DNA of 64,000 nucleotides, from NCBI RefSeq assembly GCF_023656415.1, contig NZ_JAMOIL010000006.1, positions 1 to 64,000 of the forward strand, in the 5' to 3' direction. The stretch comes from Nocardioides bruguierae (lineage in GTDB: Bacteria; Actinomycetota; Actinomycetes; Propionibacteriales; Nocardioidaceae). Each line of letters opens with the position of its first letter. Position 1 is the stretch's first letter. The translations under genes were made by a program, and so were the position numbers. Of the stretch, positions 16,107-61,389 are shown in pieces. The notes under the pieces are model-generated. The model was not told where the DNA came from, ran no database searches, and saw only the letters and a program-made list of their open reading frames with translations.

Positions 16107-16177
16107 TGCCGATAGTGCGCGACGAAATGGCTGTGTTCCCGGCCGTTCGTGGTGCTTTTCGTCGCGCACTATCGGCA
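16107..16177. repeat. 71-bp palindromic element, copy 1
   Basis: Two perfectly complementary 20-bp arms, TGCCGATAGTGCGCGACGAA (16107-16126) and its complement (16158-16177), flank a 31-bp centre. It begins four bases after the CCA of the tRNA-Thr remnant and therefore marks host DNA. Related copies are at 17287, 28538 and 61319. It could act as a terminator or be a REP/MITE-like repeat. Confidence 0.85.
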
Positions 16178-17286: not shown

Positions 17287-17357
17287 GGCCGATAGTGCGC
17301 GACGAAGTGGCTGCCTTGGGGACCAAAACCGGTGCTTTTCGTCGCGCACTATCGGCC
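17287..17357. repeat. 71-bp palindromic element, copy 2
   Basis: Perfect 20-bp arms starting GGCCGATAGTGCGCGACGAA (17287-17306 and 17338-17357). It fills almost the whole 74-bp gap between the convergent stop codons at 17284 and 17359. The centre shares TGGCTG and GGTGCTTTT with copy 1, so the two copies have the same orientation. The position suits a bidirectional terminator. Confidence 0.85.
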
Positions 17358-25988: not shown

Positions 25989-26828
25989 ATGGAGTTCACG
26001 AACGCCGACGCCGAGCGTCGCTGGAGCGACCTGCTGACCGTGCTGGACGGCACGGTCGTGGGCCTCGACTTCGACGGCACGCTGGCGCCCATCGTGGACG
26101 ACCCCACCTCCGCCGGCATCCACCCCGACGCCCACGAGGCCCTGGCCACGCTCGCCCCCCACGTGGCGGGCGTCGCGATCATCACCGGTCGCCCCGCCGA
26201 GCAGGTGATCGGCCTCGGCGACCTCGACGCGCTGGCCGACCGGCTCGCCGCCGCCGGCACCGAGCTGTTCCTGTTCGGGCAGTACGGCAACGAGCGCTGG
26301 CGTGGCGGCCACCGCGAGATCGACACCCCGGAGCCGCCGGAGGGCCTGCGCGAGTTCGTCGACGCCCTGCCCGACCTGCTCGAGGAGAAGGACGCCGACG
26401 GCGCCTTCGTCGAGGAGAAGGGCCTGGCCGTCGCGGTGCACACCCGCCGCCTGGCCGAGCCCGAGGCCGCCTTCGAGCGGCTGCTGGACCCGCTGACCGC
26501 GCTGGCCGAGGAGCACGACCTCGGCGTGGAGCCGGGACGCAACGTCGTCGAGGTCCGGGCCCCGGGGGTGCACAAGGGGATGGCCGTGGCCGAGATCGCC
26601 CAGCGCCTCGGCGCGCGCGGCTTCCTGTTCGCCGGGGACGACCTGGGCGACGTCGAGGCCATGAAGCAGCTCGACGTGCTGGCCGAGGACGGGCTGCGGG
26701 TGCTCAAGGTCGCCTCCGCCTCGCCGGAGCAGCAGGCGCTGGTCGCCCTCGCGGACGTCGTGGTCAAGGGCCCCGACGGGGTCGTCGACCTGCTCACGCG
26801 GCTCGCGCACGACGCCGCCGAGCGCTGA
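25989..26828 (+). CDS. otsB: Trehalose-6-phosphate phosphatase
   Basis: A 279-residue HAD-superfamily phosphatase that completes trehalose synthesis after OtsA. Motif I is L-D-F-D-G-T-L-A-P-I near residue 23 (first Asp the nucleophile), motif II is A-I-I-T-G-R-P, and motif IV is A-G-D-D-L-G-D-V-E near residue 216. The trehalose-phosphatase cap contains E-K-G-L-A-V-A-V-H. ATG at 25989 is chosen; a GTG five codons upstream is also possible. The gene follows the LytR_C gene by 115 bp and is split from otsA, which is on the other strand. Confidence 0.94.
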   Translation: MEFTNADAERRWSDLLTVLDGTVVGLDFDGTLAPIVDDPTSAGIHPDAHEALATLAPHVAGVAIITGRPAEQVIGLGDLDALADRLAAAGTELFLFGQYGNERWRGGHREIDTPEPPEGLREFVDALPDLLEEKDADGAFVEEKGLAVAVHTRRLAEPEAAFERLLDPLTALAEEHDLGVEPGRNVVEVRAPGVHKGMAVAEIAQRLGARGFLFAGDDLGDVEAMKQLDVLAEDGLRVLKVASASPEQQALVALADVVVKGPDGVVDLLTRLAHDAAER

Positions 26829-26985
26829 TCCGCCCCGGTTCTCCTGATCGGGCCCGGTTATCCCGGTTCTCCCGGGTCTCCCGGTCGGCCCGGGTTCGGC
26901 TCAGGTCGCCCCGCCACGGGGCGATCAGACACCTGGCCGCGACCGCATCCTGGGACTCGAGTACGCCATTCGAGACTCCGGGACG

Positions 26986-27153
26986 TACAGTGGCCACAGC
27001 TCTCATCGAGAGGGACTGAGGGAACGGCCCGTTGAAGTCCCGGCAACCGCCGCGAACCTCCGCCTCCTGGCACGCCAGTCAGGAACGGATCGCGGAAAAG
27101 GTGCTAATTCCGGCCCGGCACGAGAGACGTGCTCGGGGAAGATGAGGAGGAGG
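26986..27153 (+). promoter_or_regulatory. SAM-I (S-box) riboswitch with promoter, leader of thrC
   Basis: The promoter -10 TACAGT (26986-26991) places the transcript start next to the aptamer. Aptamer elements: P1 CTCATC (27002-27007) with GATGAG (27141-27146); P2 GGGACT with AGTCCC followed by the conserved CGGCAACC; P3 CCGCG (27050-27054) with CGCGG (27091-27095); the conserved GGTGCTAATTCC (27100-27111); P4 CCCGGCACG with CGTGC-T-CGGG around AGAGA; then GGGGAAGATGAG. The P1 3' strand runs directly into the ribosome-binding site GGAGGAGG (27146-27153). SAM binding should therefore hide the ribosome site and lower thrC translation. The P4 hairpin favours SAM-I over SAM-IV. Confidence 0.9.
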
Positions 27154-27158
27154 TACTC

Positions 27159-28469
27159 ATGAGCGCTGCGTCCACGATCGAGTCCATCGAGACGACGACC
27201 GAGGTGTCCACCGGCCCCGGTACCGCCCCCGGCGTCCGCGAGGGTGCCTTCGGCAACGCCCGCTCCCTCCTGTGCCGCGAGTGCGGCCACGAGGTCGAGC
27301 TCGGCCCCTCCTACGCCTGTCCCGAGTGTTTCGGCCCCCTCGAGGTGGCCTACGACTTCCCGGCCGTGACCCGCGAGGAGATCGAGGGCGGCCCGCGCAA
27401 CATCTGGCGCTACAAGGCGCTGCTCCCGGTGCCCACGGACATCGAGGAGTCCCCGAACACCGAGCCGGGCTTCACCCGCCTGCTCGAGGCCGGCAACCTC
27501 GGCCGCGCGCTGGGCATCTCGAAGCTCTGGGTGAAGGACGACTCCACCAACCCCACGAACTCCTTCAAGGACCGCGTCGTCGCCTGCGCCCTCTCGGCCG
27601 CCCGCGAGCTCGACGCCAAGGTCTTCGCCTGCCCCTCGACCGGCAACCTGGCCAACGCCGTGGCCGCCGCCGGTGCCCGCGCCGGCATGAAGACCGTCGT
27701 CTTCATCCCCTCCAACCTGGAGAAGCCGAAGCAGGTCAACTCGGCCGTCTACACCGACTCGCTGGTCGCCGTCGAGGGCAACTACGACGACGTCAACAAG
27801 CTCGCGCAGGAGATCGCCGCCGAGGAGGAGGGCTGGGCGTTCGTCAACGTCAACGTGCGCCCCTTCTACGCCGAGGGCTCCAAGACGCTGGGCTACGAGA
27901 TCGCCGAGCAGCTCGGCTGGCGCCTGCCCGACCAGGTCGTCATCCCCGTCGCCTCCGGCTCGCAGCTGACCAAGGTGCACAAGGCCTTCCAGGAGCTGAT
28001 CAAGCTCGGCCTCGTCGAGGAGAAGCCGTACAAGATCTTCGGCGCCCAGGCCAACGGCTGCTCGCCCGTCTCCACCGCCTACAAGGCCGGCGTCGACGCG
28101 ATCCGCCCGGTCAAGCCGGACACCATCGCCAAGAGCCTCGCCATCGGCAACCCCGCCGACGGCATCTACGTGCTCGACATCGCCCGGGAGACCGGCGGCG
28201 CCGTCGAGGACGTGACCGACGACGAGGTCCGCGAGGGCATCCTGCTGCTCGCCCGCTCCGAGGGCGTCTTCACCGAGACCGCCGGCGGCACCACCGTGGC
28301 CGTCACCCGCAAGCTCGTGCAGACCGGCCAGCTCGACCCCGAGGCCGAGACCGTCATCATCAACACCGGCATGGGCCTGAAGACGCTCGACGCCGTCTCC
28401 GACCAGGTCGGCCCCGCCGCCACCATCAAGGCCTCCTACTCGGCCTTCGTGGGCACCGGCATCGCCTGA
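27159..28469 (+). CDS. thrC: Threonine synthase
   Basis: A 436-residue PLP enzyme converting O-phosphohomoserine to threonine. An N-terminal zinc-ribbon-like stretch has C-R-E-C-G and C-P-E-C-F (residues 38-57), followed by the PLP Lys in N-S-F-K-D-R-V near residue 137 and the phosphate-binding C-P-S-T-G-N-L-A-N-A-V. This longer form with a Cys-rich N-terminus is common in actinobacteria. ATG at 27159 follows an excellent GGAGGAGGT site that is part of the SAM riboswitch junction. It is a monocistronic unit followed by a strong hairpin and a palindromic element. Confidence 0.95.
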   Translation: MSAASTIESIETTTEVSTGPGTAPGVREGAFGNARSLLCRECGHEVELGPSYACPECFGPLEVAYDFPAVTREEIEGGPRNIWRYKALLPVPTDIEESPNTEPGFTRLLEAGNLGRALGISKLWVKDDSTNPTNSFKDRVVACALSAARELDAKVFACPSTGNLANAVAAAGARAGMKTVVFIPSNLEKPKQVNSAVYTDSLVAVEGNYDDVNKLAQEIAAEEEGWAFVNVNVRPFYAEGSKTLGYEIAEQLGWRLPDQVVIPVASGSQLTKVHKAFQELIKLGLVEEKPYKIFGAQANGCSPVSTAYKAGVDAIRPVKPDTIAKSLAIGNPADGIYVLDIARETGGAVEDVTDDEVREGILLLARSEGVFTETAGGTTVAVTRKLVQTGQLDPEAETVIINTGMGLKTLDAVSDQVGPAATIKASYSAFVGTGIA

Positions 28470-28491
28470 CCCAGCCCCCGCACGCTCCGCC

Positions 28492-28533
28492 ACCGCGGGC
28501 CCCGCACCCACCTCGGGTCGGGGCCCGCGGTGC
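28492..28533 (+). terminator. Hairpin terminator of thrC
   Basis: CACCGCGGGCCCCG pairs with CGGGGCCCGCGGTG over 14 bp around a 14-base loop, 22 bases after the thrC stop. There is no T-run, as is usual for GC-rich actinobacteria. The palindromic element copy 3 follows five bases later. Confidence 0.75.
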
Positions 28534-28537
28534 TTCC

Positions 28538-28604
28538 CAGTAGTGCGCGACGAAAAGCACCGCCGACGGCCGAGAACAGGACCACTTCGTCGCGCACTAG
28601 TGGC
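28538..28604. repeat. Palindromic element, copy 3 (67 bp, inverted and diverged ends)
   Basis: Arms CCAGTAGTGCGCGACGAA (28538-28555) and TTCGTCGCGCACTAGTGG (28587-28604) pair with one mismatch. The centre contains AAAGCACC and GGACCAC, the reverse orientation of copies 1 and 2. It lies between the convergent thrC and sigma-factor genes, ten bases from the latter's stop. Confidence 0.8.
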
Positions 28605-28613
28605 GGAGACGCC

Positions 28614-29870
28614 TCATCGGGAGGTCTCGGCGCGACGACGCAGCAGGTGGGCCAGCTCGGCCTCGTTCTCGCAGGCCGCGATCGCCTCGTCGAAGGCGGC
28701 CAGGGCGTCGGGGGTGCGGCCGGCGCGGGCGAGCAGCTCCGCGCGGACGCCGGGCAGGCGGTGCCCGGGCAGCCCGCCGGCGTCGATCGCGGCCAGCGCC
28801 TCGAGGCCGGCGTGCGGGCCGTGCACCTCGGCGACGGCCACGGCCCGGTTGAGCCGGACGACGGGGCTCTCGCCCAGCCCGACCAGCTCGTCGTAGCGGG
28901 CCACGACCCGGTCCCACCGGGTGGCCGCGGAGGTGGGCGCGATCGCGTGCTCGGCCGCCACCAGCGCCTCGCACAGCCACCGGGACGCGGGCGCGGTGGC
29001 CAGCGGGGTCAGCAGGGCGAGCGCCTCGGTGATCGCCGCGTGGTCCCACCGGCCGCGGTCCTGGTCGGGGAGGAGCACGAGGCCGCCGTGCGCGTCGACC
29101 CGGGCGTCGCGCCGTGAGTGCTGGAGGAGCAGCAGCGCGAGGAGGGCGTCGACCTCGCGGCGCACGTCCTCGGGGCAGGACGACGGCAGCAGCCCCCGCA
29201 CCACGCGCACGAGTCGCAGCGCCTCCCCGGCGGCGTCCGCGCGCAGCACGTCCGGGCCGGTGCCGGGGGAGTACCCGGCCGTGAACGCGAGGTAGGCGAC
29301 CTCGCCCACCAGGAGGACCCGCGCGGCCAGGGCGTCGCCGTCCGGCACGGCGAACCCGGCGCCGGCCAGCCGCTTGCGGGCGCGGGTGAGCCGGGCGGCC
29401 ATCGTGGGGGCGGGCACGAGGAAGAGTCGTGCGACCTCGGCCGTGCTCACGCCCATCACCATCCGCAGCGTCAGCGCCGCGGCGTGCTTTGGGGCCAGCG
29501 ACGGGTGAGCGCAGAGCAGGACGAGGCGGAGCCGCTCGTCCGGCAGCGCGTCGTCGCCCACCAGGTCGGCGGGGTCGAGCCGGTCGACCGCGTCCACGAG
29601 GGAGGCCTCGACCTCGAGCAGCGGCTGGTGCCGGGCGCGCACCGCCTCGGCGCGCAGCCGGTCCAGCACCCGCCGGCGCGCCGCGGTGAGCAGCCACGCC
29701 GGCGGGTTGGCCGGGGCGCCGTCGACCGGCCAGGTGCGGGCGGCCGCCTCCACGGCGTCGGCCAGCCCGTCCTCGGCGAGGTCGAGCCGCCGGTACTGGG
29801 CGACCAGCAACGCGAGCAGCCGGCCCCAGTCCTCCCGCACCGCCGCGGCCAGGCGCTCGTCGGGGCTCAG
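28614..29870 (-). CDS. ECF-type RNA polymerase sigma factor with extended C-terminal (SnoaL-less, DUF6596-type) domain
   Basis: A 418-residue sigma factor of the branch encoded next to YCII genes. Region 2 is L-L-A-L-L-V-A-Q-Y-R-R-L-D-L-A-E-D-G-L-A, with the core contact D-R-L-R near residue 77. Region 4 is L-R-M-V-M-G-V-S-T-A-E-V-A-R-L-F-L-V near residue 145. The 230-residue C-terminal domain is helical (TPR-like A-L-A-A-I-D...A-F-D-E-A-I). No ATG, GTG or TTG suits the 5' end well. A CTG at 29870 overlaps the upstream stop as CTGA and has TGGAGGA at ideal spacing; a GTG about 13 codons later is the alternative. Confidence 0.85.
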   Translation of the reverse strand: MSPDERLAAAVREDWGRLLALLVAQYRRLDLAEDGLADAVEAAARTWPVDGAPANPPAWLLTAARRRVLDRLRAEAVRARHQPLLEVEASLVDAVDRLDPADLVGDDALPDERLRLVLLCAHPSLAPKHAAALTLRMVMGVSTAEVARLFLVPAPTMAARLTRARKRLAGAGFAVPDGDALAARVLLVGEVAYLAFTAGYSPGTGPDVLRADAAGEALRLVRVVRGLLPSSCPEDVRREVDALLALLLLQHSRRDARVDAHGGLVLLPDQDRGRWDHAAITEALALLTPLATAPASRWLCEALVAAEHAIAPTSAATRWDRVVARYDELVGLGESPVVRLNRAVAVAEVHGPHAGLEALAAIDAGGLPGHRLPGVRAELLARAGRTPDALAAFDEAIAACENEAELAHLLRRRAETSR

Positions 29871-32286: not shown

Positions 32287-32313
32287 TTTGCACTCGAGGG
32301 GGTCGAGTGCTAA
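32287..32313. promoter_or_regulatory. CIRCE operator 1 (HrcA site) for groEL
   Basis: TTTGCACTC (32287-32295), nine-base spacer, GAGTGCTAA (32305-32313). This matches the HrcA consensus TTAGCACTC-N9-GAGTGCTAA with two changes in the left arm. HrcA bound here would repress groEL until heat shock. Confidence 0.95.
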
Positions 32314-32322
32314 ACATGACGC

Positions 32323-34106
<1,784 letters not shown>

Positions 34107-61318: not shown

Positions 61319-61389
61319 GGCCGATAGTGCGCGACGACAAGCACCCGGATCGGTGGCTCGGTGGTGCCTTTCGTCGCGCACTATCGGCG
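61319..61389. repeat. 71-bp palindromic element, copy 4
   Basis: Arms GCCGATAGTGCGCGACG (61320-61336) and CGTCGCGCACTATCGGC (61372-61388), 17 bp perfect. It stands between two genes read leftwards: one base before the stop of the 61,391 gene and 38 bp upstream of the XPB start. This copy could therefore separate their transcripts. Confidence 0.85.

Follow-up and report, generated by a model that had tools for sequence, protein, structure and literature searches.

A SAM riboswitch in front of a gene that family models call threonine synthase raises the question of which pathway is regulated, and in which direction. The first-pass annotation of this DNA had described the leader as a SAM riboswitch with all its conserved parts, acting on thrC, and had concluded that SAM controls the threonine branch. 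We examined this reading in the window, that is, the whole analysed stretch of 64,000 nucleotides from Nocardioides bruguierae, in its genome assembly and in related genomes. The features of the locus are the following.

27000-27148, plus strand: SAM-I riboswitch aptamer RF00162, helices P1-P4 with a long P3 extension, predicted to bind SAM (70.3 bits with cmscan, 96.1 bits with R1, our own covariance model)
27002-27007, plus strand: P1 5' strand, CTCATC, read from the sequence, pairing with GATGAG at 27141-27146
27141-27146, plus strand: P1 3' strand, GATGAG, whose last base is the first G of the Shine-Dalgarno run
27145-27153, plus strand: double Shine-Dalgarno, AGGAGGAGG, read from the sequence
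27159-28469, plus strand: gene resembling metM, encoding a PLP-dependent protein of 436 aa that the family model names threonine synthase and that is predicted to be an O-phosphohomoserine-dependent homocysteine synthase
28491-28532, plus strand: possible transcript end downstream of the gene, a 14-nt perfect inverted repeat lacking a T-run
28537-28603, no strand assigned: REP-like palindrome with 18-nt arms, at the place of metO in most relatives

The riboswitch in the leader is real. The cmscan search of the whole window assigned the plus-strand segment 27000-27148 to RF00162 (SAM) with 70.3 bits (gathering score 44.4) and an E-value of 2.2e-14, over the full length of the model (1-108 of 108), and the Infernal scan thus bears out the SAM riboswitch and its conserved parts, here as SAM-I. 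It was the sole Rfam match above gathering score in the window, and no other RF00162 match at E <= 0.001 was found in the 4.55 Mb assembly. Our own covariance model was built from 19 leaders found in the class Actinomycetes. Changes on both sides were observed in 14 of the 28 pairs, a count as high as this being reached by 0 of 500 shuffles, with kinship left in the shuffles and the alignment fitted to the structure. In the 82-row alignment of the relatives, also structure-fitted and including one weak 19.9-bit minus-strand match, 92.8% of the cells of helices P1-P4 were paired. Five of the six core P1 pairs were formed in 82/82 rows and the sixth, beside the Shine-Dalgarno, in 74/82; the P1 sequence was nearly constant among the leaders.

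The same arrangement was found around the orthologous gene in relatives. We compared 80 named relatives, the best of 561 found, which belong mostly to Nocardioides, Marmoricola and Aeromicrobium and show 78-89% identity. The covariance model detected SAM-I directly upstream of the gene at 80/80 of their loci, which upholds the annotated riboswitch beyond the window, and tblastn detected a CysO-like sulfur-carrier gene directly downstream at 74/80. These counts replace those of a regular-expression search that undercounted both elements (riboswitch core 67/80, carrier 55/80). The carrier gene was also downstream at 29/29 further loci (L104-L132, the best matches of a class-wide sample), and tblastn placed it downstream in 15 of 20 regions chosen from the class-wide sample (12/20 by a pattern search), and in 11 of the 16 among these regions that lie outside the family. 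Across 295 Actinomycetes genomes, with the gene counted as present at a best E below 1e-100, a SAM-I match was obtained in 181/181 genomes with the gene versus 11/114 without it, in a search whose stricter filters lose weak matches. At the 30 best-scoring SAM-I loci of these genomes the gene was adjacent in every case. The Actinomycetes genomes in which SAM-I is present and metM was counted absent are G002, G019, G025, G050, G213, G220, G224, G230, G236, G243 and G257.

By family model, the 436-aa product is a threonine synthase: the NCBIfam model TIGR00260 gave 260.5 bits for a cut-off of 167.1, and the five best solved-structure matches are all threonine synthases, while NF006050 was missed with 288.9 against 303. 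The same genome, however, carries on another contig a hom-thrC-thrB operon in which a 372-aa ThrC stands between homoserine dehydrogenase and homoserine kinase; the hom/thrB-flanked place of thrC is occupied by this gene and not by the window gene, and threonine synthesis is served by a separate operon that lacks this riboswitch. The operon ThrC scored 284.1 bits with TIGR00260, a model that fits both proteins and therefore does not separate the two paralogues. The window protein is 33% identical to the operon ThrC over residues 82-410, and this identity, together with a second typical ThrC in its own operon, makes the window gene a paralogue.

A system with a similar layout is known from Streptomyces albulus, where metO reportedly lies downstream of metM and thiocarboxylated MetO is said to be the sulfur donor. 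According to PMC12172450, Streptomyces MetM is a homocysteine synthase acting on O-phosphohomoserine, and metM of S. albulus is preceded by a SAM riboswitch (PMC12172450, with reference to Hasebe et al. 2024). The window gene is likewise threonine-synthase-like with a SAM riboswitch upstream, its use of O-phosphohomoserine is predicted, and the order riboswitch-metM-carrier recurs in 74 of the 80 named relatives (best 80 of 561). Since paralogy, riboswitch and family-wide gene order fit together, we take the window gene as a metM orthologue, the link to S. albulus MetM apparently running through genomes with the same gene order. With SAM control of S. albulus metM already in print (PMC12172450), the riboswitch and its target in the window are of a known kind.

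The assignment of the riboswitch to thrC agrees with the family model TIGR00260 but is most probably mistaken: the context, namely the separate operon and the linkage to SAM-I and a sulfur-carrier gene, points to metM. Control of the threonine branch by SAM finds no support, with hom-thrC-thrB elsewhere and the gene travelling with SAM-I and the sulfur-carrier gene. MetM would draw O-phosphohomoserine away from threonine synthesis into homocysteine, and from there into methionine and SAM, so that SAM would repress its own route of synthesis as in ordinary end-product feedback. If the gene is metM, the puzzle of SAM lowering threonine synthesis falls away. The suggestion that phosphohomoserine is competed for or spared came close, as MetM and ThrC would share that substrate.

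We found also that the distribution of the gene is related to that of MetX, the homoserine acetyltransferase. No MetX match at E <= 1e-20 was obtained in 95 of the 295 genomes, and 91 of these 95 have the gene; it is also present in 90 of the 200 genomes with a MetX match (Fisher 9e-20 for gene versus MetX absence, kinship left in, so that the p-value is only a guide). The gene is therefore not simply a MetX substitute. Four of the 295 genomes have neither the gene nor a MetX match. In the window genome nothing beyond a partial 24.6-bit MetX match was found. At E <= 1e-5, the search for MetX in the window genome, in G304 and G313 and in the genomes with L054, L060 and L071 gave either no match or short partial ones that did not exceed about 30 bits. 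A full-length MetX is encoded in the genomes with L032 and L067, and a MetX split into three pieces in the one with L018; some of these are metagenome assemblies and may be incomplete. MetA was not found in any of the ten genomes examined, the window genome included. Only one full-length PLP enzyme of Cys/Met metabolism was found in the window genome; its nearest model is that of cystathionine gamma-lyase, whose cut-off it does not reach.

Two other activities of the window protein have to be weighed against a homocysteine synthase. A true second threonine synthase, with SAM really throttling the threonine branch, would agree with the TIGR00260 score above cut-off and with the five threonine synthases among the solved structures, but it is extremely improbable in view of the complete hom-thrC-thrB operon elsewhere in the genome, the linkage of the gene to SAM-I and to a sulfur-carrier gene, and its presence in 91/95 genomes without a MetX match. 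A bifunctional enzyme, i.e. a homocysteine synthase with a side activity from phosphohomoserine to threonine or from threonine to ketobutyrate, is compatible with the metM assignment and seems unlikely. It has a parallel in Microcystis ThrC, which according to PMC12172450 is 51.6% identical to S. albulus MetM, is adjoined by a metO-like gene annotated as sulfur carrier, has threonine synthase activity and also deaminates threonine. The same paper reports that this protein, in vitro with a sulfur source, gave only an unidentified peak near methionine, and that cells rich in ThrC contained no more methionine (PMC12172450). As these results indicate, the reaction is not fixed by sequence kinship and a neighbouring carrier gene alone; the Microcystis gene, however, is described as being without a SAM riboswitch (PMC12172450), and a separate ThrC exists in the window genome. 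We infer that the window MetM forms homocysteine from O-phosphohomoserine.

The mode of switching was then considered from the contact between P1 and the Shine-Dalgarno, which had been annotated as a closing P1 strand abutting the Shine-Dalgarno five bases before the gene; both the contact and its coordinates are correct. The Shine-Dalgarno run GGAGGAGG at 27146-27153 is opened by the last G of the P1 3' strand, and 5 nt separate it from the ATG start codon at 27159-27161. The first AGGAGG (27145-27150) lies 8 nt before the start codon and has two bases in common with P1, and the second (27148-27153) lies 5 nt before it. In 80 of 81 leaders, the Shine-Dalgarno core starts between one base inside and one base after the GATGAG strand. 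The distance from the end of the aptamer model to the first NTG is 6-13 nt in the 81 leaders, which leaves no room for a terminator, and a consensus scan of 26800-28700 found no sigma-70-like promoter and no intrinsic terminator. Compared with SAM-I (S box) RF00162, the window leader shares the full-length aptamer at 70.3 bits and differs in that no terminator was found and in its near-constant P1 set on the Shine-Dalgarno. The lack of a terminator and the position of P1 argue for a translational form of SAM-I, and the near-constancy of P1 is as expected if its 3' strand also serves translation.

In the predicted fold of the window leader, the Shine-Dalgarno was unpaired at 0.18 with P1 formed and at 0.67 without P1. 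Folding of the 81 leaders gave a mean Shine-Dalgarno openness of 0.39 with P1 and 0.54 without, with 16 exceptions in which the fold predicts a more open Shine-Dalgarno with P1 formed, in a crude test that takes the first NTG as start and the best match as Shine-Dalgarno, enforces the aptamer pairs or forbids P1, and leaves out the pseudoknot. A translational OFF switch is the best reading of these models as to the direction of switching. At high SAM the aptamer would close P1 against the Shine-Dalgarno and the 30S subunit would be unable to load, whereas at low SAM P1 would open and MetM would be translated. The ATGAG/CTCAT complementarity present in the window could give the opposite switch: without SAM, the P1 3' strand would bind the CTCAT ahead of the start codon, masking the start until P1 forms. 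Such an ON switch is very improbable, because in the folds the start codon is equally open with or without P1 (means 0.56 and 0.56), P1 leaves the Shine-Dalgarno no more accessible in 65 of the 81 leaders, and relatives with GTG or TTG starts are, by eye, without the complement. The reading that we retain, metM under a translational OFF switch by which SAM-I represses a predicted homocysteine synthase, is highly probable. In the leaders L079, L041, L081, L078, L077, L085, L082, L022 and L042, the Shine-Dalgarno runs straight into its own complement AAGGAGGCCTCCTT, which reaches as far as a TTG start, and a second layer of Shine-Dalgarno masking is possible there.

The window genome departs from the S. 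albulus layout downstream of the gene. No metO was found at the metM locus or in the window assembly, a draft of 75 contigs that is 99% complete; as the metM locus is continuous in the window, the draft could hide a gene elsewhere and not at this locus. A complete MetM/MetO pair, with metO next to metM, was therefore not found in this genome, and it is a REP-like palindrome that follows the gene. This palindrome has the form TAGTGCGCGACGAA ... TTCGTCGCGCACTA with a loop of about 31 nt of varying sequence, and occurs in four copies in the window, at 16113-16171, 17293-17351, 28541-28599 (the copy after metM) and 61325-61383; its arms gave 9 matches with at most 2 mismatches in the window versus 0.48 expected. 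Another repeat of the window, GCACTC-N9-GAGTGC at 32287-32313, precedes groEL (32457-34106) and is CIRCE-like, and we take it to be the expected HrcA site.

Four ThiS-family proteins were found in the window genome: CysO, MoaD and ThiS, the last two named by eye from neighbouring reading frames, and an orphan. CysO, the only CysO/MetO-type carrier found at E <= 1e-6, shares its locus with genes for a cysteine synthase and for a desampylase-like (Mec-type) protein. The CysO-CysM-Mec system of M. tuberculosis is a cysteine pathway. The CysO of the window genome, near its Mec-type protein and cysteine synthase, is comparable to it and is of the same carrier type as MetO; its use by MetM here is a proposal of ours that goes beyond that system. 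The CysO protein (L013, 4448-4735, minus strand) has the C-terminus GGC, one residue past GG, as have several MetO proteins, and the desampylase-like protein of the locus could trim this end. The orphan carrier is an intact protein of 91 aa ending in PPFAGG (L016, 3601-3876, minus strand; contig C35), with no NCBIfam match at 1e-10, and adjoins a response regulator that by eye resembles GlnR.

Among 80 genomes of the family, the gene is present in 74, and 70 of these 74 have two CysO/MetO-type carriers (E <= 1e-6, counted per genome). G303 has a single carrier beside metM, and in the remaining three of the 74 (G304, G313 and the window genome) the single carrier lies at a distance from metM. 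Six family genomes have no copy of the gene; a single carrier was counted in five of them and two carriers in G305. When the lack of metO is placed on a tree of 81 MetM proteins, its seven rows, among them L054 with about 1 kb of contig after the gene, require four changes, at least two of which are forced by well supported branches; metM and its riboswitch were kept through these roughly four changes. In several lineages the apparent main homocysteine route is thus without its usual carrier, and the persistence of metM and riboswitch suggests that CysO may be the carrier for the making of cysteine and homocysteine alike. As a simple explanation, sulfur may come, without MetO, from the thiocarboxylated CysO of the cysteine pathway. 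MetM may use CysO in this way, a step that lies outside the confidence given above for metM under an OFF switch. We propose tentatively, as a plausible scenario falling short of probable, that after the loss of metO, CysO supplies both cysteine synthase and the riboswitch-controlled MetM, that SAM sets the division of the shared pools of protein-bound sulfur and phosphohomoserine, and that this state arose about four times among the relatives examined. For this step only, it is conceivable, if rather doubtful, that MetM works without CysO, on free sulfide or on the orphan 91-aa carrier. Such a route would fit the failure to find metO and the intact state of the orphan, a protein of the ThiS family with GG at its end, but the orphan is not of CysO/MetO type, CysO alone having matched at E <= 1e-6.

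A literature search, mainly of titles and abstracts, with most subscription journals outside its scope, returned nothing on metM in Nocardioides or on a role of CysO in making homocysteine, and neither the family-wide linkage nor the P1/Shine-Dalgarno spacing nor the recurrent lack of metO was found in print within the same, mainly title and abstract, coverage. The NCBI family model names such genes threonine synthase. If the metM reading is true, the upstream riboswitch marks a methionine gene, and in the 295-genome sample there was no genome with the gene and without a SAM-I match. Annotations would then be corrected, and a likely homocysteine route would be named for actinobacteria without MetX. 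The genomes without metO would be natural experiments on one sulfur carrier serving two amino-acid pathways.
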